From Hephaestia caeni (GTDB lineage: Bacteria > Pseudomonadota > Alphaproteobacteria > Sphingomonadales > Sphingomonadaceae): a stretch of DNA of 64,000 nucleotides. Of this stretch, positions 9,319 to 58,719 are shown piece after piece. Numbering within the stretch: the stretch's first letter is position 1; the number at the start of each line of letters is the position of its first letter. Below the pieces are notes generated by a model. It did not search any database. It saw only the letters and a program-made list of their open reading frames with translations, and was not told where the DNA came from. The DNA is taken from contig NZ_QXDC01000002.1 in the NCBI RefSeq assembly GCF_003550065.1, positions 248,001 to 312,000 of the forward strand. Direction: 5' to 3'. Position numbers and translations under genes: made by a program.

Positions 9319-9380
9319 GCGTCACCCCCGCGCAAGCGGGGGCTCTTGGCCGGGAGAGCCAGCCTTCGCTGGCATGACGT
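9319..9380. repeat. Dispersed palindromic repeat between korA and korB
   Basis: Two small hairpins in series: CCCCCGC-gcaa-GCGGGGG and CCAGC-cttc-GCTGG, flanked by CGTCA and TGACG. The same CAGCCTTCGCTGGCATGACG-like block recurs near 36746, 47040, 47110, 50820 and 50890. In this copy the element lies inside the korAB transcript, so it could act as an mRNA-stability or processing hairpin. Confidence 0.7.
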
Positions 9381-13774: not shown

Positions 13775-13915
13775 GTTTGAGAAGGCGTCTTTCGGTGCAT
13801 GGCAGCGCCGGCCCGCTCCCCCACCCGGGCACCCAACACCAGTATTCTATGGGTGGCCGGGTGGGGGAGTGGGCCGGCGCCGCTTCGGAAATCGCTCTTT
13901 CGCGATTTCTCAAAC
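13775..13915. repeat. 140-bp palindromic MITE-like element (family A, copy 1)
   Basis: Terminal inverted repeats GTTTGAGAA and TTTCTCAAAC bound a palindromic body (GCCGGCCCGCTCCCCCACCC answered by GGTGGGGGAGTGGGCCGGC) and an internal hairpin GGAAATCGC-tctttc-GCGATTTC. A near-identical full copy lies at 54847-54986 and a 55-bp short form at 18432-18486. It carries no gene of its own. Here the right half runs in frame into the lipoprotein gene at 13849. Confidence 0.85.
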
Positions 13916-16929: not shown

Positions 16930-17034
16930 CGTCATCCGGCACCTCCGCTCGTCATCCCCGCGGAATCTCAACCGTAGTGGGTGGGTTGATCGGGGGAGAT
17001 GGGTCCCCGCTTTCGCGGGGATGACGGGGGCGGC
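16930..17034. repeat. Dispersed palindromic repeat after the acyl-CoA dehydrogenase
   Basis: A CGTCATCCCCGCGGAAT-type arm near 16955 pairs with CCCCGCTTTCGCGGGGATGA around 17008-17027. Both belong to the same family as the hairpins in the korB-SDR gap. It lies between convergent genes and may double as a bidirectional terminator. Confidence 0.6.
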
Positions 17035-36733: not shown

Positions 36734-36745
36734 TGATTTCTTTCC

Positions 36746-36842
36746 GTCATGCCAGCGCAGGCTGGCACCCATGTCTCTCGCCGCGAACGGTGATGACGAT
36801 TGGAACAGAGATAGACTCCAGCCTGCGCTGGAGTGGCGAGCT
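36746..36842. repeat. Dispersed paired-hairpin repeat between sufC and sufD
   Basis: CGTCATGCCAGCGCAGGCTG (from about 36747) and ACTCCAGCCTGCGCTGGAGT (36816-36835) are two hairpins facing each other about 50 bases apart, the same layout as at 50815-50925. It lies inside the suf operon, where it could set the relative level of the upstream and downstream halves. Confidence 0.75.
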
Positions 36843-40086: not shown

Positions 40087-42012
40087 TCATTCTTCGTTGC
40101 GCTCGACCTGCACCAGCAAGCTGCCTTCGCTGACCTGCGCGCCTTCGGTGGCGGCGAGATCGGCGATGATGCCGTCGAACGGGGCGGTGAGCGTGTGCTC
40201 CATCTTCATCGCCTCGAGCGTGACGAGCTTCTGACCCTTGGCGACGGCGTCGCCCGCCGCGACCGAAACGGCGATGATGCGGCCCGGCATGGGGGAGAGG
40301 ATGGCGCCATCGGTGGCGGTGCCTGAGGCGGTGCCGGATCCGCGGTAAGGGGCGGTGACAAATGCCGCTCCACCATCGAACATCACTGCCGTTTGCCCGA
40401 TGCCGACCATGCCGTTGCGTTCATCTTCCCAATAGGCGCGGAACTCATCCATGCTGTCTGCGAACTCAATGGGCACCCGTTCACCATCAACAGACAGCAC
40501 AACGGTGCGCTGACGATCGGCATTCAAGCGGAATCCCAAAGTTCCCGCAAAGCGGGCCTCATCACCTGGAGAGCAGATTGGCGGATGAAAGTCGTCGTTA
40601 TAGACCGCACGGTCGGCGGCTTGTTGCAACAACGCGGGGCGAGGGCGCGGGGCCTCTATCAGCACATCCTGATGTTCTGCGATAAAACCGGTTGTAACAG
40701 CGCCTGCTTGAAATTCCGGTCTGAGGAGCAGGCGGTGCAGGAACCAGGCATTCGTCTTGACCGGGATGCATTCAACGCGACCGACCGCGTCCGCCAGCTT
40801 CGTAATTGCCTTTTCCCGCGTGTCCGCTGTTGCAATCAACTTGGCGATCATAGGATCGTAGAACGGAGAAATCGTGTCGCCTTGCTCGACGCCAGTTTCG
40901 ATTCGCCCGGCCCCCCGGAACACAAGGTGATCGAGTGAGCCGGTGCTTGGCAGAAATCCCGCGGCCGGGTTCTCCGCATAAAGCCGCGCCTCGATGGCCC
41001 AGCCGTTGATCTTCAGCTCCTCCTGCCGCTTCGGCAACGGCTCACCGTTGGCGACCCATAGCTGCCATTCGACCAAATCCTGACCGGTTATTGCCTCGGT
41101 CACCGGGTGTTCGACCTGCAACCGGGTGTTCATTTCCATGAACCAGATGCGGTCGGCGCGCAGCCCGTCGCTCGCGTCGGCGATGAATTCGATCGTGCCG
41201 GCGCCTTCATAGTCCACTGCTTTGGCGGCGCGGACGGCGGCGGCGCAGACGGCCTCGCGCGTCGCCTCGTCCATGCCGGGGGCGGGGGCTTCCTCGATCA
41301 CCTTCTGGTGGCGGCGCTGGAGCGAGCAATCGCGCTCGAACAGATGGACGACATTGCCGTGGGCATCGCCGAACACCTGCACTTCGATATGGCGCGGCGA
41401 GAGGATGTATTTCTCGATCAGCACGCGATCGTCGCCGAACGAACTGGCGGCCTCGCGCTGGCACGATTGCAGCGCGTCGGCGAATTGCGGCGCAGCATCG
41501 ACGCGGCGCATCCCCTTGCCGCCGCCGCCCGCGACCGCCTTGATCAGCACCGGATAGCCGATCGCATCGGCCTCTGCGTGGAGGCGATCGGGGTTCTGAT
41601 CCTCGCCGAGATAGCCCGGCGTCACCGGCACGCCCGCGGCGATCATGCGCTGCTTGGCGGCGTCTTTGAGGCCCATCGCGCGGATGCTGTCGGGCTTGGG
41701 GCCGACCCAGATCAGCCCGGCATCGATCACGGCAGCCGCGAAATCGGCATTTTCCGAGAGGAAGCCGTAGCCGGGATGGATCGCCTCGGCGCCGGCCTGC
41801 TTCGCGGCGGCGATGATTTTGTCGCCGACGAGATAGCTTTCGCGTGCGGGCGAGGGGCCGATATGGACCGCCTCGTCGGCCTGACGGACGTGGAGCGCGG
41901 CGGCGTCGGCATCCGAATAGACCGCGATCGTGCGGATTCCCATGCGGCGCGCGGTGCGGATGACGCGGCAGGCGATTTCGCCGCGATTGGCGATGAGGAG
42001 CGATGTCAGCAT
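40087..42012 (-). CDS. Methylcrotonyl-CoA carboxylase alpha subunit (biotin carboxylase/carrier)
   Basis: 641 residues from ATG 42012 (MLTSLLIANRGEIACRVIRT). The biotin carboxylase domain fills about 1-445, with the ATP-grasp glycine loop VAGGGGKGMRRVD and EMNTRLQVEHPVTEAITGQD. A BT-like linker follows, then the biotinyl domain at the C-terminus with LVTLEAMKMEHTL (the biotin lysine). Together with the beta subunit at 43174 and isovaleryl-CoA dehydrogenase it fits leucine degradation. A stretch at about 40380-41110 has lower GC and different codon choice from the rest of the gene, as if replaced by recombination with a relative's allele, but the frame is intact. A propionyl- or geranyl-CoA carboxylase role is less likely given the beta subunit. 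Confidence 0.92.
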   Translation of the reverse strand: MLTSLLIANRGEIACRVIRTARRMGIRTIAVYSDADAAALHVRQADEAVHIGPSPARESYLVGDKIIAAAKQAGAEAIHPGYGFLSENADFAAAVIDAGLIWVGPKPDSIRAMGLKDAAKQRMIAAGVPVTPGYLGEDQNPDRLHAEADAIGYPVLIKAVAGGGGKGMRRVDAAPQFADALQSCQREAASSFGDDRVLIEKYILSPRHIEVQVFGDAHGNVVHLFERDCSLQRRHQKVIEEAPAPGMDEATREAVCAAAVRAAKAVDYEGAGTIEFIADASDGLRADRIWFMEMNTRLQVEHPVTEAITGQDLVEWQLWVANGEPLPKRQEELKINGWAIEARLYAENPAAGFLPSTGSLDHLVFRGAGRIETGVEQGDTISPFYDPMIAKLIATADTREKAITKLADAVGRVECIPVKTNAWFLHRLLLRPEFQAGAVTTGFIAEHQDVLIEAPRPRPALLQQAADRAVYNDDFHPPICSPGDEARFAGTLGFRLNADRQRTVVLSVDGERVPIEFADSMDEFRAYWEDERNGMVGIGQTAVMFDGGAAFVTAPYRGSGTASGTATDGAILSPMPGRIIAVSVAAGDAVAKGQKLVTLEAMKMEHTLTAPFDGIIADLAATEGAQVSEGSLLVQVERNEE

Positions 42013-42162
42013 GGGTCCGCCGGGGTAAAGTGGAGAAAGTGGAGAGTGTCGCACGGTTTTGTCCGCTTTGCCGCGAGCGCCCGGAAACGGGGGCGAGGAT
42101 GCGGGCGGGCGATGCTCATGCGGTGATCATAAACCAGATGGGGTGCTGTAGGACAGCGCACG

Positions 42163-42645
42163 TCATGCCGCCTCGCACCCCGTGGTGCGCTGCGACCAGG
42201 TGACGTTGAGCACCTTCCACTGGCCGGCGTCGTGGATCAGGTCGAAATGGTCGACCCCGCAATGGTGCGGCTTGCCGTCGAGCAGGAAAGTGTACGGCCC
42301 CCAGACCATCGCGATATCGCCGTCGATCTCGACCGCGGGCGGGCCGGTGAAGCGTTCCTCGAATGCCTCTGCGCCCGGCTTGATGCCGGCGGTGAATTCG
42401 TCCCAGCTAAGATGGCGGATCGTGCGGGTGCCGTCGGGCTGTTCGATGGCGACGGTGGCGCCGCCTTCGGGGCGAAGCTCGGCGCGGATCGCCTGCGCGT
42501 CGTGCGCCGCGAGGCCGGCGAACATGCGCTCGACGGGGGCGAGGACGGCGGCGGTATCCGCATCGGGTGGCGGCAGCGCAGTGCCCTTGATGATGGGCGC
42601 GACCGGGGTGACCTGAAAGAGAAGCGGGAGGATGAGGGGGAGCAT
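42163..42645 (-). CDS. Exported SnoaL/NTF2-like protein
   Basis: 160 residues from ATG 42645 behind GGAGGATGAGGGGG. A short signal-like N-terminus (MLPLILPLLFQVTPVAPI) is followed by the NTF2-like cone fold: DTAAVLAPVERMFAGLAAHD, AQAIRAELRPEGGATVAIEQ, HLSWDEFTAGIKPGAEAFEE and the closing strands IAMVWGPYTFLLDGKPHHCG and VDHFDLIHDAGQWKVLNVTW. This is the DUF4440/lumazine-binding-like group of the NTF2 superfamily. The ligand or reaction is unknown. It lies between the two carboxylase subunit genes. Confidence 0.8.
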   Translation of the reverse strand: MLPLILPLLFQVTPVAPIIKGTALPPPDADTAAVLAPVERMFAGLAAHDAQAIRAELRPEGGATVAIEQPDGTRTIRHLSWDEFTAGIKPGAEAFEERFTGPPAVEIDGDIAMVWGPYTFLLDGKPHHCGVDHFDLIHDAGQWKVLNVTWSQRTTGCEAA

Positions 42646-42663
42646 GGGTGGAATCCTATGCGA

Positions 42664-42717
42664 TCCTCCCCGAGCTTGTCTCGGGGAGGGGGACCATGCG
42701 AAGCATGGTGGAGGGGG
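42664..42717. repeat. Left inverted repeat of the DUF559 unit
   Basis: It contains TCCTCCCCGAGCTTGTCTCG then GGGAGGGGGACC (an internal hairpin, CTCCCCGAG/CTCGGGGAG type) and ACCATGCGAAGCATGGT followed by GGAGGGGG. It matches, as a reverse complement, the right copy at 43094-43152. It ends 7 bases before the DUF559 start. Confidence 0.9.
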
Positions 42718-42724
42718 AAGGGAG

Positions 42725-43156
42725 ATGTTGCGAGACGTTGCGCCTAAACCGAAAAGCGAGACGGTCGCGAGATCGCGCCGGTTGCGGCGTGTGATGTCTC
42801 CGCCCGAAATCGCGCTTTGGCAGGTTTTGCGCGCGCGCCCCGCGGGTCTCAAATTTCGACGGCAACATCCAAGCGGCGATTATACGCTCGATTTCTACTG
42901 TAGCGACGCCCGGTTGGCGATCGAGATCGATGGCGAGGCGCACGGGCGAGGTGATCGGCCGATGCGCGATGCGCGGCGTGATCGGTGGTTTGCGGGTCAC
43001 GGCATTGCGACGGTGCGGATTCCCGCGCGTGAGGCGCTTCGCGATCTGGATAGGGTCGTTCGGGGGATCGTCGTGGCCGCGCAGGCGCGGCTGCCCCTCC
43101 ACCATCCGGCTGCGCCGGACGGTCCCCCTCCCCGAGACAAGCTCGGGGAGGAATAA
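42725..43156 (+). CDS. DUF559-domain protein (Vsr/restriction endonuclease-like fold)
   Basis: 143 residues from ATG 42725 (MLRDVAPKPKSETVARSRRL). The DUF559 domain is complete: RRLRRVMSPPEIALWQVLRA, GLKFRRQHPSGDYTLDFYCS, DARLAIEIDGEAHGRG (the PD-(D/E)xK-like acidic strand with D and E positions) and WFAGHGIATVRIPAREALRD. It resembles the very short patch repair endonuclease. The last about 18 residues (HHPAAPDGPPPRDKLGEE) are encoded by the right inverted repeat. The gene and its flanking 55-60 bp inverted repeats form a compact unit between the carboxylase genes. The function of DUF559 proteins is unproven; nuclease activity is inferred from the fold. Confidence 0.85.
   Translation: MLRDVAPKPKSETVARSRRLRRVMSPPEIALWQVLRARPAGLKFRRQHPSGDYTLDFYCSDARLAIEIDGEAHGRGDRPMRDARRDRWFAGHGIATVRIPAREALRDLDRVVRGIVVAAQARLPLHHPAAPDGPPPRDKLGEE
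43094..43152. repeat. Right inverted repeat of the DUF559 unit
   Basis: CCCCTCCACCATCCGGCTGC then GCCGGACGGTCCCCCTCCCC and GAGACAAGCTCGGGGAGGA. The outer part is an exact inverted copy of the left arm (42664-42717); the inner hairpin differs (CCGGCTGCGCCGG here, ATGCGAAGCAT there), with compensating changes that keep a stem. It overlaps the 3' end of the DUF559 gene. Confidence 0.9.
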
Positions 43157-43173
43157 GGGGCCATCGTTTCTCA

Positions 43174-44775
43174 TCACATGCGGAACACGCCGAACGACGG
43201 GCGTTCGGGGATGGGGGCGTTGAGGGTGGCGGCGAAGGCTAACCCCAAGACATCGCGGGTTTGCGCCGGATCGATGATGCCGTCGTCCCACAGTCGCGCG
43301 GTGGCGTGCCAGGGGTTGCCTTCGTCTTCGTATTTTTCGCGGATCGGGGCCTTGAAGGCCTCGGCTTCTTCCGCGCTCCAGCTATCGGCGTCGCGGTGGA
43401 CCGTCGCGAGCACGCTGGCGGCCTGTTCGCCGCCCATCACGCTGATCCGGCTGTTGGGCCATGAAAAGAGGAAGCGCGGCGAATAGGCGCGGCCGCACAT
43501 GCCGTAATTGCCCGCGCCGAAGCTGCCGCCGATCAGGATCGTGATCTTGGGCACGCTGGCGGTGGCAACCGCGGTCACCAGCTTGGCGCCGTGCTTGGCG
43601 ATGCCTTCGGCCTCGTACTTGCCGCCGACCATGAAGCCCGAGATGTTCTGGAGGAAAAGCAGCGGAATGCGGCGCTGGCAGGCGAGTTCGATGAAATGCG
43701 CGCCCTTGACCGCGCTTTCGCTGAACAGCACGCCGTTGTTGGCGAGGATCGCGACCGGCATCCCCCAGATATGCGCGAAGCCGCACACCAGGCTGCTGCC
43801 GTAGAGCGCCTTGAATTCGTTGAACTCGCTGCCGTCGACGAGGCGGGCGATGACTTCATGGACATCGTAGGGCGCGCGGACGTCTTCGGGGATGATACCG
43901 TAAAGGTCGTCGGCGGGGTATCGGGGCGGGCGCGGATCGGTGAGCGCGATGTCTGGCGTGCGATTGGCGGGGAGCGTCGAGACGATGTCGCGGACGATCG
44001 TGAGCGCGTGCTCGTCATTCTCGGCGACGTGATCGACCACGCCCGACTTGCGGCCGTGGGTATCGGCGCCGCCGAGTTCCTCGGCCGAGATGACCTCACC
44101 GGTGGCAGCCTTCACCAGCGGCGGGCCGGCGAGGAAGATCGTGCCCTGATTGCGGACGATGACGCTTTCGTCGGACATGGCGGGGACATAGGCGCCGCCC
44201 GCGGTGCAGCTTCCCATCACGCACGCGATCTGCGGGATGCCGAGCGCGCTCATGTTGGCCTGGTTGAAGAAGATGCGGCCGAAATGGTCGCGGTCGGGGA
44301 ACACCTCGGCCTGATGCGGCAGGTTGGCGCCGCCCGAATCGACGAGGTAGATGCACGGCAGCCGGTTGGCCTCGGCGATCTCCTGCGCGCGGAGATGCTT
44401 CTTGACCGTCATCGGATAATAGGTGCCGCCCTTCACCGTGGCGTCGTTGCACACGATCATGACCTGCCGGCCGGAGACGCGGCCGATCCCGGCGATCAAC
44501 CCGGCGCCGGGCACCTCGCCGCCATACAGGCCGCCCGCGGCGAGCTGGCCGATTTCGAGAAAGGGCGCGCCGGGATCGAGCAGCCGTTCGACGCGATCGC
44601 GCGGGAGCAACTTGCCGCGCGCGGTATGGCGGTCGCGCGAGGCTTGCGAGCCGCCCGCTGCGGCCCGGGCGACATCGGCGCGCAAGCGATCGGCCAGCGC
44701 GCGATTGTGCGCAGCATTGGTACGGAACGCATCGCTTTCGGGCGACAATTTGGTGTCGAGTAGCGGTGCGCTCAT
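43174..44775 (-). CDS. Methylcrotonyl-CoA carboxylase beta subunit (carboxyltransferase)
   Basis: 533 residues. Crotonase-fold carboxyltransferase: [100 protein letters not shown], and at the C-terminal half [20 protein letters not shown] and [20 protein letters not shown]. These match the MCC beta subunit, which carboxylates 3-methylcrotonyl-CoA in leucine breakdown. The alpha subunit gene lies downstream on the same strand, separated by the DUF559 unit and the NTF2-like gene. Confidence 0.94.
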
Positions 44776-47029: not shown

Positions 47030-47145
47030 GCCGTCCCCCGTTTCGTGACCCCAGCGAAGGCTGGGGTCTATCTCTCTAGCAAGGCGGCCCGTTCGCTTCC
47101 GATAGGGTCATGGATGCCAGCCTTCGCTGGCATGACGGCAACTGG
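47030..47145. repeat. Dispersed paired-hairpin repeat between the M13 and isovaleryl-CoA dehydrogenase genes
   Basis: GACCCCAGCGAAGGCTGGGG (47047-47066) and ATGCCAGCCTTCGCTGGCAT (47114-47133) are hairpins of the same family as at 9319, 36746 and 50815. It lies between convergent genes. Confidence 0.75.
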
Positions 47146-50687: not shown

Positions 50688-50814
50688 CGAGCGGGCACTT
50701 AGGCCGGGCGGCGGCGCGCGGCAATCGGCACGCGATCGAAGGCCGCGGCTTTCGGGAGTATCGGGAGTCCAGCGTCCGCCGGAGCGACGCGCTGGGCGAG
50801 GAAATGCCTTATTC

Positions 50815-50925
50815 CGTCATGCCAGCGCAGGCTGGCATCCATGTCGGTCGGTTATCGGGCCACCGTCCGTTATTTCTCGCATCAGACATGGACCCCAGCC
50901 TTCGCTGGGGTGACGGTCTGGGGCT
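50815..50925. repeat. Dispersed paired-hairpin repeat upstream of the TonB-like gene
   Basis: CGTCATGCCAGCGCAGGCTG (50816-50835) then GCATCCATGTC, answered by GACATGGACCCCAGCCTTCG (50886-50905) and CTGGGGTGACGG. This is two hairpins in inverted orientation with short complementary links. It is the most complete copy of the family also seen at 9319, 36746 and 47030. The rest of 50688-51028 shows no gene. Confidence 0.8.
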
Positions 50926-54846: not shown

Positions 54847-54986
54847 GTTTGAGAATGCGCCTTTCGGCGCATGGCGGCACCGGCCCGCTTCCCCACCCGA
54901 CCACCCATAGGATAATCGCATTGGGTGGCCGGGTGGGGGAGCGGGCCGGTGCCGCCACGGAAATCGCTCTTCCGCGATTTCTCAAG
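54847..54986. repeat. 140-bp palindromic MITE-like element (family A, copy 3)
   Basis: It starts GTTTGAGAATGCGCC and ends GCGATTTCTCAAG. It contains GGCGGCACCGGCCCGCTTCC then CCACCC, mirrored by GGGTGGCCGGGTGGGGGAGC then GGGCCGGTGCC, plus the hairpin GGAAATCGC-tcttcc-GCGATTTC. It has very high similarity to 13775-13915. It lies between convergent genes. Confidence 0.85.
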
Positions 54987-56417: not shown

Positions 56418-57275
56418 ATGCGGGAACCGAGTGTCAGGGCCAGCCGGTTGGCGATCGCGGGCGGCGCGGCCGCCACGATCGCGATCGGCGCCGCCGGGTT
56501 CTTTCTCGGCCGCGCCACCTATCCCGCGCCCGAGCCGATCACCCCCGTAGTGATCGAGGCACCTGCGCCGCGGCCATCACCCACGCCGGTTTTGCCGTCG
56601 GTGTGGGGGCGAAGCGAGATCGTCGACCTCGCCGTTGCCGCGAGCGATGCGCTGACCTCGGGCAAGCCGCTTCCCGATCTGGCGAACGAGGCGGTCGGCC
56701 AGCGGCTCGATCTCGTCATTCCGTTCGGCTGTTCAGGGCCGGCGGACGAGACCAGCCATGCGCCGCTGCGCTGGCGATACGATGCGCAAGACCGGGCGTT
56801 GCGTATCCATGTCGAGCCGACGCAATGGTCGGGGGCCGATTGGGCGCTGGCCAAGGAACAGGCGGCGGCCTCGATCGAAGGTTTCTGGATTCCGCGGCCC
56901 TGGTCGACGAGCGACGCCTGCCCGCGGCGGACCCAGGCGGGGGCGAGCGGCACCGAGACCGTCCTGCTGCCGGGACAGACGCTGGCGGTGGCGCAATTCA
57001 CCGGCGACGACGAGCGTGTCTTCGATACCGTGCAGCGCGTCACGCCCGACGAATTCGACGTGTCGCAAGGGCTGCGGCTTCGCCTGCGCGGACGTATCGA
57101 CCGCGTGCCCGGCGCCGGTGCGGTCCGCTGCATTCAGCCGGCGGGCAGCGAGCAGCGCCCGATCTGCGTCGTTGCGATCTCGCTCGACGAGGTGCTGATC
57201 GAAAATACCGCGACGGGCGCCGTGCTGGCGACCTGGTCCGTCAGCCGCCCGCGCCAAGGCGCGCCCGATCTTTGA
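56418..57275 (+). CDS. Anchored periplasmic protein of unknown function, ending inside the CRISPR array
   Basis: 285 residues from ATG 56418; the frame upstream overlaps the divergent permease gene. One N-terminal transmembrane helix (RLAIAGGAAATIAIGAAGFF) and a Pro-rich linker (PRPSPTPVLPS) precede a periplasmic domain of about 210 residues, with LDLVIPFGCSGPADETSHAP, LRWRYDAQDRALRIHVEPTQ, EGFWIPRPWSTSDACPRRTQ and PICVVAISLDEVLIENTATG. Four Cys may form two disulfides. No family was recognised. The stop codon TGA (57273-57275) lies within the degenerate terminal CRISPR repeat (57251-57286), so the array now borders the gene directly. Confidence 0.75.
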   Translation: MREPSVRASRLAIAGGAAATIAIGAAGFFLGRATYPAPEPITPVVIEAPAPRPSPTPVLPSVWGRSEIVDLAVAASDALTSGKPLPDLANEAVGQRLDLVIPFGCSGPADETSHAPLRWRYDAQDRALRIHVEPTQWSGADWALAKEQAAASIEGFWIPRPWSTSDACPRRTQAGASGTETVLLPGQTLAVAQFTGDDERVFDTVQRVTPDEFDVSQGLRLRLRGRIDRVPGAGAVRCIQPAGSEQRPICVVAISLDEVLIENTATGAVLATWSVSRPRQGAPDL

Positions 57276-58671
57276 GGCGCTAAACCCGGCGCCAATTACA
57301 TCCAGCGCGGCAACCAGTTGCGGTTGGCCCCCGATCTCTGAGGCGCTAAACCACTGCCTGCTGCGCGACCTGCGGCTTATGCGTTGCGGTTGGCCCCCGA
57401 TCTCTGAGGCGCTAAACCAACCGCGCCTGCGCGTCGAGAAGCGCGGTAGTTGCGGTTGGCCCCCGATCTCTGAGGCGCTAAACCCTCCCTCACCAGCCCG
57501 GTGCGATGCCCGGTGTTGCGGTTGGCCCCCGATCTCTGAGGCGCTAAACCTTTCGATCCCAGGGCGATCCGCACGATCAGTTGTGGTTGGCCCCCGATCT
57601 CTGAGGCGCTAAACCCGGCGGATATTTTACTGGATTACGTTTGGTGTTGTGGTTGGCCCCCGATCTCTGAGGCGCTAAACCTTGACGCATGGTATATCAC
57701 GGCGATTAACGGTTGTGGTTGGCCCCCGATCTCTGAGGCGCTAAACCATCAACACCCTTCTGCTTGTCCACCGTGATGTTGTGGTTGGCCCCCGATCTCT
57801 GAGGCGCTAAACCCCTGATCCACCCTCACCGCTGGAGCCTGCGGTTGTGGTTGGCCCCCGATCTCTGAGGCGCTAAACCGATCGTGGACAGGTGCGCCAT
57901 TGCCGTGGCGTTGTGGTTGGCCCCCGATCTCTGAGGCGCTAAACCCGGCGCGATGCCGGCGGCGGCCGACGTCGAGTTGTGGTTGGCCCCCGATCTCTGA
58001 GGCGCTAAACCCCGCGCCGCCGCGAGCTGGCGCAGTCCTGGGTTGTGGTTGGCCCCCGATCTCTGAGGCGCTAAACCTCCGTCGTCGGCGAGCTGGCGGA
58101 CGATATCGTTGTGGTTGGCCCCCGATCTCTGAGGCGCTAAACCGCTATGGCCGAGCGGACGCGGTGCCGTTCGGTTGTGGTTGGCCCCCGATCTCTGAGG
58201 CGCTAAACCCGCAACCTGCTCGAACAGCGGATAGCGAATGTTGTGGTTGGCCCCCGATCTCTGAGGCGCTAAACCGCCGGTGTTGCGCGGCGCCGGCGTC
58301 GGCACGTTGTGGTTGGCCCCCGATCTCTGAGGCGCTAAACCTCGCCTTGGCGAACGTATAGACCTCCTGGGGTTGTGGTTGGCCCCCGATCTCTGAGGCG
58401 CTAAACCCAAGTCGTCTTTGGCGATGAATGCGCTAGGGTTGTGGTTGGCCCCCGATCTCTGAGGCGCTAAACCGGCGTGGCGGAAGCGAGCGCGAAGGCG
58501 ATGGTTGTGGTTGGCCCCCGATCTCTGAGGCGCTAAACCCATCCGAACGTCAGGGCGAGCGCGCAAGGTGTTGTGGTTGGCCCCCGATCTCTGAGGCGCT
58601 AAACCACCGGCACCCCCACGCCTTGGCCGTTGGTTGTTGTGGTTGGCCCCCGATCTCTGAGGCGCTAAACC
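57251..58671 (+). CRISPR. Type II-C CRISPR array: 21 full 36-bp repeats plus one degenerate repeat, 21 spacers
   Basis: Full repeats start at 57317 and recur every 66 bases (one 65) to 58636-58671. The repeat begins GTTGTGGTTGGCCCCCGATC and ends TCTGAGGCGCTAAACC; spacers are 30 bases (one is 29). The four leftmost full repeats read GTTGCGG, the other 17 GTTGTGG. The far-left copy (57251-57286) keeps only the last about 23 bases with one change and overlaps the stop codon of the preceding gene. Damage and variants at the left mark the old end, so new spacers are probably added next to cas2. The match of the repeat to the anti-repeat at 63637-63657 and the terminator there indicate crRNA transcription on the plus strand, towards cas2. 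TTGGCC and TAAACC, 17 bases apart within the repeat, could serve as a promoter in each unit, as in Neisseria type II-C arrays. Confidence 0.98.
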
Positions 58672-58719
58672 GGATGCGCCAGTAACTTATTGATCATGTA
58701 AGAAAAATTGGCACATCCG
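58671..58719. promoter_or_regulatory. Hairpin-bearing spacer/leader between array and cas2
   Basis: The 72 bases between the last repeat and cas2 are AT-rich. CGGATGCGCCA (58671-58681) and TGGCACATCCG (58709-58719) are inverted, 10 of 11 matched, around an AT-rich loop that includes TGATCA. It could stop transcription from both sides (array and cas genes converge here) and would also be the leader where new spacers enter. Confidence 0.55.

Follow-up and report, generated by a model that had tools for sequence, protein, structure and literature searches.

What does a small gene for an endonuclease-like protein do between two inverted palindromes at an operon junction, and does it form a mobile unit with them? 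The question is raised by a DUF559 gene of Hephaestia caeni, located in the stretch of DNA analysed here ("the window": 64,000 nucleotides (nt), positions 248,001 to 312,000 of contig NZ_QXDC01000002.1 in assembly GCF_003550065.1, from a genome of 4.52 Mb assembled in 10 contigs), for which a first-pass annotation had proposed a minimal mobile unit recalling the arrangement of repetitive extragenic palindromes (REPs) and REP-associated tyrosine transposases (RAYTs). Based on comparison across genomes, the gene and its arms make up one package, jointly present or absent at the junctions examined. We put at about even the chance that we are dealing with a minimal selfish gene, composed of a gene for a homing/Vsr-type nuclease and of inverted palindromic arms as its cognate ends. 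Its parts, in window positions, are as follows.

42664..42716, forward strand: left arm, 53 nt, from inverted-repeat search, strict arm pattern and sequence reading
42665-42689: outer hairpin of the left arm, cctccccgag-cttgt-ctcggggagg, then gggacc
around 42693-42709: inner hairpin of the left arm, accATGCGAAGCATggt, with the closing ggtggagggg up to 42716
42725..43156, forward strand: DUF559 gene, 143 amino acids, with a predicted homing/Vsr-type PD-(D/E)XK nuclease domain at residues 14-117
43094..43152, reverse strand: right arm, inverted, 59 nt, wholly within the DUF559 reading frame; outer hairpin at 43127-43151

Framing of DUF559 genes by inverted arms

Both arms of the window unit have the same layout, in which gggacc links an outer hairpin to an inner hairpin of variable sequence and ggtggagggg closes the arm, and together they make up a pair of inverted bi-hairpins. 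In the inverted-repeat search, positions 42664-42722 and 43094-43152 align ungapped over 59 nt with 80% complementarity, and the framing score of 76, obtained by comparing flank with flank, contrasts with a maximum of 33 among 1000 dinucleotide shuffles; the inverted arms perceived at first pass are thus borne out. Sequence reading also upholds the earlier description of outer parts that are exact inverted copies (32 nt) and of hairpin centres that differ yet keep pairing: read in arm direction, the inner hairpins atgcgaagcat and gtccggcgcagccggat are unlike each other, and each is self-pairing. Two details needed correction. The ATG (42725) lies 8 nt past the left arm rather than 7, and, rather than ending within the right arm, the reading frame crosses it entirely to reach a stop codon at 43154-43156, two bases beyond, with the effect that about 20 C-terminal residues of the protein are encoded by the arm. 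An Rfam search of positions 42400-43400 returned no match.

The combination of DUF559 with terminal hairpins is, on the sequence evidence surveyed, a general arrangement. The framing test used for the survey compares the left flank of a gene with the reverse complement of its right flank and takes a score of at least 36 as a pass. Each of the four DUF559 genes found in the H. caeni genome stands between inverted palindromic arms, which are of the window type in two cases and of other types in the other two; the three units outside the window lie between NAD(P) transhydrogenase genes, between trpB and trpA and beside a ribonucleotide reductase gene (by reading). DUF559 matches were found in 57 of 61 genomes of the same genus, at 0-10 per genome, and two samples were drawn from the listed matches, a capped list that stops short of the weakest. 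The first, with one locus from each of 40 genomes (nearly always the best match), gave 36/40 passes compared to 2/869 among shifted control intervals of the same loci; the second, consisting of 40 other listed matches picked by hand, gave 34/40 compared to 1/238. Pooled, 70 of 80 DUF559 loci are armed, as against 3 of 1107 shifted intervals; the loci not passing are L022, L038, L043 and L051 in the first sample and L284, L287, L295, L298, L300 and L311 in the second. Other open reading frames (ORFs) at the first loci and at the four of H. caeni pass in 3 of 230 cases, the small ones among them in 0 of 69. Two of the control ORFs, L051:829-2205 and L015:3281-4858, have inverted-flank scores of 73 and 78, and the latter adjoins the DUF559 unit of L015.

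Since these genomes are rich in palindromes, chance framing or an artefact of the flank comparison had to be considered as an explanation. It is rejected by the shifted-interval and other-ORF controls, and together with the reverse test from arm pairs described below these figures leave it a negligible probability.

More widely, DUF559 was found in 89 of 299 genomes of the phylum and in 35 records of a plasmid collection, from which 6 of 8 loci examined pass. A plasmid of Deinococcus psychrotolerans (L240) carries DUF559 between paaD and paaZ with near-perfect 56-nt inverted arms (score 107); these arms are of different sequence, and the host is of a different phylum.

Arm copies, palindrome numbers and protein lineage

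The reverse approach starts from the arms. A strict pattern for the window arm type retrieved 12 arms from the H. caeni genome and arms from 53 of the 61 genus genomes; the reversed control pattern found no match among the 61. Pair analysis, which covered 142 of the 150 arms of this type, yielded 49 neighbouring pairs at most 2 kb apart, 44 of them facing inward. In 36 of the inward pairs the gap measures 20-60 nt and in the other 8 it measures 347-377 nt, with nothing between these ranges, and all eight wide pairs hold a DUF559 gene; five had been chosen from their arms alone, and the eighth is the window unit. Searching the arms with and without DUF559 between them, as envisaged at first pass, has therefore separated wide pairs with the gene from short-spacer pairs and orphan arms without it, and the latter two look like non-autonomous relatives. 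Ten further units from two genomes pass the framing test with scores of 38-93, while the match of L204 stands at the end of its stretch and is unjudgeable.

Single arms were also seen within coding sequence. Among 20 ThiC-like proteins, four have an in-frame single arm in the same C-terminal linker (gene name and arms assigned by eye). The linker arms of H. caeni and L225 are of the window type, those of L218 and L229 of another type and that of L230 is degenerate; L217 is listed with the ThiC-like loci whose linker received single palindromic arms in frame. Another arm of the H. caeni genome lies inside a helicase-like ORF (by eye). Palindromic elements inside coding genes occur in Rickettsia, to which the arms in the ThiC-like linker may be likened.

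Each genus genome has 5-392 palindromes of the general type (reversed control, 0-13), and the more DUF559 copies it holds, the more palindromes tend to be present (rho 0.75); between copy number and genome size, rho is 0.33. The four genomes having no DUF559 match contain 15, 7, 5 and 6 palindromes, compared to a median of 69. Four of the 61 genus genomes contain a match to Y1_Tnp (PF01797), the domain of the REP enzymes known so far, and the H. caeni genome has none at E <= 1e-6. These numbers bear on the explanation that the palindromes are moved by another enzyme, such as a RAYT, with DUF559 simply riding between two of them. Palindromes found with no DUF559 nearby would fit such an enzyme; the rarity of Y1_Tnp and the largely DUF559-specific framing do not, and we consider the explanation highly improbable. 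For this genus, we consider a RAYT acting in trans unlikely to be the principal cause.

To allow for the many units that have a junction in common, arm sequence and protein lineage were compared as averages by site. With 22 sites, arm similarity correlates with protein identity at a rho of 0.615, a value reached in 0 of 1000 permutations, and in a tree of 73 DUF559 domains the clades match arm types by eye, the tree being built on few columns and having many open forks. Units within one genome are no more alike than units across genomes: mean arm similarity is 0.34 for the former and 0.35 for the latter. From site to site, then, the arms vary in step with the lineage of the protein.

The predicted nuclease and its known counterparts

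The window protein matches PF04480 (DUF559) with 82.4 bits, well above the curated cut-off of 20.6. The Pfam scan found only this domain, plus MTES_1575 below cut-off, and no HUH/Y1 transposase domain. One PHROGs family of unassigned function was matched, and the only NCBIfam model, that of DUF559, was far below cut-off. The predicted structure (mean predicted local distance difference test score 85) has as its nearest solved folds in Foldseek NGO0050 (3hrl, E 7.5e-7) and the homing endonuclease I-Bth0305I (3r3p, 2.4e-3); further matches are to a Toxoplasma mitoribosome subunit (3.6e-3) and, weakly, to E. coli Vsr (1vsr, 0.46) and TnsA (0.53). A profile of 12 proteins matches NGO0050 at 2.8e-23, PvuRts1I at 3.6e-5 and I-Bth0305I weakly at 0.026. 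The window protein thus models as a homing/Vsr-type nuclease. Residues E28, Q47, D69, G70, H73 and D82 are invariant in 73 of 73 domains, D56 and E67 are present in 72, and the conserved core E..D..E.DG..H..D is of the kind seen in Vsr-like (EDxHD) homing endonucleases. We infer the core residues to be catalytic. Of 15 close pairs, four are saturated; in the remaining 11 the ratio of nonsynonymous to synonymous substitution rates lies at 0.09-0.23, and by this measure the nuclease core is under purifying selection.

Regarding known systems, the units resemble REP/REPIN systems with RAYT in having palindromes beside a dedicated nuclease gene and inward short-spacer pairs without a gene. Their flanking palindromes recur elsewhere as inverted pairs, a feature of RAYT/TnpA-REP, and their inward-facing repeats have the short, narrow spacers typical of REPINs. 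The difference lies in the enzyme, which here appears to be homing/Vsr-type and not HUH/Y1; the enzymes of REP/RAYT and TIR/TIRYT systems are HUH (PMC3733652; PMC6006769). The REP/RAYT idea of the first pass is accordingly well supported as an analogy, with palindromes tracking DUF559 number and no Y1_Tnp match in the same genome, but not as membership, given that the HUH domain was not found in the protein. By analogy, the unit would work like a REPtron without being one. A GTAG tag, which stands at the foot of RAYT-system repeats, was not seen as a shared feature when the outer ends of 50 units were read by eye. Many unit outer ends have CTAA/CTAG-like letters just outside the outer hairpin that are, likewise by eye, reminiscent of the classical REP GTAG.

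The TIRtron/TIRYT arrangement, as presented in PMC3733652, is similar in placing a nuclease gene between long, partly self-complementary inverted repeats and in having gene-less dimers and clusters; it differs in an enzyme with HUH and catalytic tyrosine, no such domain being found here by Pfam. The same source reports CGTC-tagged REPs of alpha-proteobacteria without transposase-gene association (PMC3733652), palindromic and of the same host class as the arms of the unit but of another sequence family. With I-Bth0305I and Vsr-like homing endonucleases, the DUF559 units share fold, conserved core and the reoccupation of one junction by different lineages, and they show the homing-endonuclease trait of a defined location with empty counterparts, found in other species rather than as alleles of one. 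The listing of I-Bth0305I describes a mobile intron protein, whereas the DUF559 gene stands free, with palindromes on either side. The Caulobacter protein VsrA (CCNA_02930) has the same domain, DUF559, and is proposed to be an endonuclease of mismatch repair with a linked methylase (PMC12907096); a word search for 'palindrom' in that paper found no occurrence. Unlike DDE insertion sequences, the units have no excess of target-site duplications at their ends. No description of DUF559 with palindromic arms was found in a search of titles and abstract openings, with subscription papers and preprints outside its range.

Junctions, rival readings and meaning

The first-pass annotation had the unit interrupt the two subunit genes of one enzyme. 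The unit does stand at the junction of that operon, but a small ORF intervenes, so it is not directly between the two genes. The neighbours, all outside the unit as parts of the host junction, are these.

43174..44775, reverse strand: carboxyltransferase (mccB-like) gene, flanking the unit
42163..42645, reverse strand: small ORF, start placed by eye, separating the unit from the biotin-carboxylase-like gene
40087-42054, reverse strand: biotin-carboxylase-like gene, preceded by the small ORF

An annotated record of Sphingobium sp. RAC03 has the same gene order as the window mccB junction, and the best named matches of the mccB-like protein are from Sphingomonas (records very near the window possibly left out). 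As for junction names used here, pnt, suf, mcc and paa are taken from records with annotation; serA, hisZ, yqeY, dnaG, yebC, ruvC and lpd are our own reading of sequence.

Sites lacking the unit, for which the first pass had looked to sister strains, were found in other species rather than as alleles, at trpB-trpA, mccB and yqeY-dnaG. Among 30 genomes, trpB-trpA holds a unit in 3 (the third located in G021 from coordinates), a palindrome pair of another family in 2, another insert in 5 and overlapping or abutting genes in 14, with 6 unparsed. The short repeat ATGA on both sides of the H. caeni unit there is a single case and is also required by both genes. Downstream of mccB, surveyed at the best 80 loci, a DUF559 gene is present at 11, in both orientations; each of the 11 has at least one strict arm and 9 have two or more. 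A readable complete arm within 700 nt was found at 0 of the 69 mccB loci without DUF559, several of which end sooner. L122 has an unread stretch with arm parts on both sides and may be a further unit. Of the 30 genomes compared at yqeY-dnaG, 15 have a unit and 3 have just a palindrome; the remaining 12 show neither, in one case at a contig end. G029 carries a unit and G032 a single palindrome at this junction, with flanks 93-95% identical. In the H. caeni genome, a left arm is followed before the DnaG-like gene by a decayed-looking DUF559 start (L266; G000:C4 near 111.5 kb); this palindrome-only site reads as a loss and is perhaps a fifth, lost unit.

Different lineages occupy this junction in G033 and G047, whose DnaG proteins are 95% alike and flanking DNA 86-91%, while their DUF559 proteins are 50% alike and belong to different clades; the DUF559 protein of G033 is 78% like that of G029, the DnaG proteins of those two being 85% alike. 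Within sites, divergence of DUF559 and of its neighbours gave a rho of -0.31 to 0.22 at four sites and 0.55 at mccB, and a second analysis gave 0.17 (p 0.145), with -0.23 at mccB; DUF559 divergence, so measured, does not clearly follow neighbour divergence. Vertical descent alone is not favoured, considering these values and the different lineages in close species, nor is homing into a pre-existing arm pair, considering the 0/69 gene-less mccB loci with a readable complete arm. A resident repair or stress nuclease with a host function, like Caulobacter VsrA, its hairpins serving for example as terminators or autoregulatory sites, would explain the purifying selection. It sits poorly with a copy number ranging from 0 to 10 per genome, with the patchy occupation of the examined junctions, with the occurrence of different lineages at a single site and with arms found where the gene is missing; we regard it as improbable. 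Thirty-nine of 52 units are transcribed like the upstream gene (crude ORF calling), which suggests that units may borrow its promoter.

Several findings weigh against the selfish gene with cognate arms. Free transposition, implied by a mobile unit, is not supported: 49 of 65 units are at nine recurring junctions sharing both neighbours, and at eight of the nine their orientation is constant. Target-site duplications, a sign of mobility in the first-pass reasoning, are not in excess at the outer ends (3.28 compared to a null of 3.22, standard deviation 0.13; 50 of 63 units). The window unit itself is opposed to both neighbours, departing from the shared direction with the upstream gene; of the mccB-site units, L181 has several arms in irregular order and the gene of L135 is framed at only 34 points. 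Five to 15 palindromes persist in genomes without a DUF559 match, one of which (G006, 15 palindromes) has a Y1 enzyme, and correlation of palindrome and copy numbers is no proof of cause. Beyond the genus, 12 of 30 loci pass (controls 2/180), six of the 12 in other classes, and the Neisseria and Sinorhizobium loci fail. Lastly, units of different lineages have a common hairpin core at yqeY-dnaG, so that the congruence of arms and proteins is partly site-bound. Fixed positions with no empty sites, which the first pass took as evidence against mobility, are half of what was found: positions recur, yet many genomes are unoccupied there. Recurring junctions and the missing duplication excess together point to an element with few recurring homes, lost and refilled.

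Part of this evidence suits an intergenic homing gene, the nuclease of which targets the empty junction of core genes and is copied via flanking homology after DNA transfer, with arms that are passive or a by-product. The closest solved folds, the recurring junctions with orientation fixed at eight, different lineages at one junction in close species and DUF559 divergence not clearly tracking the flanks all argue for it. Passive arms, however, do not predict that arms track protein lineage across sites, that the gene is in 8/8 arm pairs with the 347-377 nt gap or that palindrome number tracks DUF559 number, and a single protein clade is found at several junctions. We judge the explanation unlikely, with an appreciable chance left to it.

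Other repeats of the window had been suggested as relatives of the unit. No further copy of its arm type was found in the window with a tolerance of up to 4-5 mismatches, and the other window palindromes examined are of another type; elsewhere in the genome, the same arms do recur without the gene, singly and as inward-facing pairs. The window palindromes are CGTC-like (cgtcatgccagc...gctggcatgacg) and form a REP family distinct from the DUF559 arms:

36742-36780 with 36810-36839: CGTC-like inverted pair
47041-47079 with 47109-47138: CGTC-like inverted pair
50812-50850 with 50887-50916: CGTC-like inverted pair
9351-9380 and 16998-17027: CGTC-like single copies

Loci L084 and L110 have a CGTC-like pair at trpB-trpA, where other genomes carry a DUF559 unit, and unrelated repeat families therefore use one junction. 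A tandem repeat of 66-nt period at 57244-58680, with 20 listed copies 63-78% like the reference copy, probably represents a repeat protein. Positions 13850-13913 and 54922-54985 are 64-nt copies, 92% identical and 41 kb apart.

Returning to the selfish gene, the nuclease could act on the arms and thereby spread the palindromes, a proposal for which we see the chances for and against as balanced. It would recognise, nick or cut extruded or single-stranded hairpins, and the cut ends would be repaired from another copy, which may let the unit enter or re-enter a few junctions between core genes. Gene-less derivatives (short-spacer pairs and single arms) would spread as REP/REPIN-like repeats, and recombination between the two similar hairpins may remove the gene, with a single palindrome staying behind.

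In its arrangement the unit follows REP systems, with an enzyme of another family, and it would, if the role proposed for the nuclease is right, constitute a separate machinery. REPINs are proposed to stem from REPs flanking an autonomous element, and the unit would show an intact REP-gene-REP element of the type put forward as their ancestor (PMC3116915). A wider claim is tentative, its chances somewhat short of even: a large class of REP/REPIN palindromes, in alpha-proteobacteria and further afield, would have DUF559 units for autonomous parents, and a homing/Vsr-type PD-(D/E)XK nuclease acting on its own inverted hairpin ends would make up a second, non-HUH machinery. If true, palindrome families without a known enzyme would get one, and the gene-less pairs would be miniature derivatives. 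For alpha-proteobacterial palindromes reported to lack a transposase partner, as stated for the CGTC family (PMC3733652), a nuclease family tied to other palindromes of this host class, with arms that match enzyme lineage, is a direct candidate and one open to a clean assay. DUF559, listed by Pfam as of unknown function, would thereby be given a putative role, and the position of DUF559 genes between core genes would be explained.
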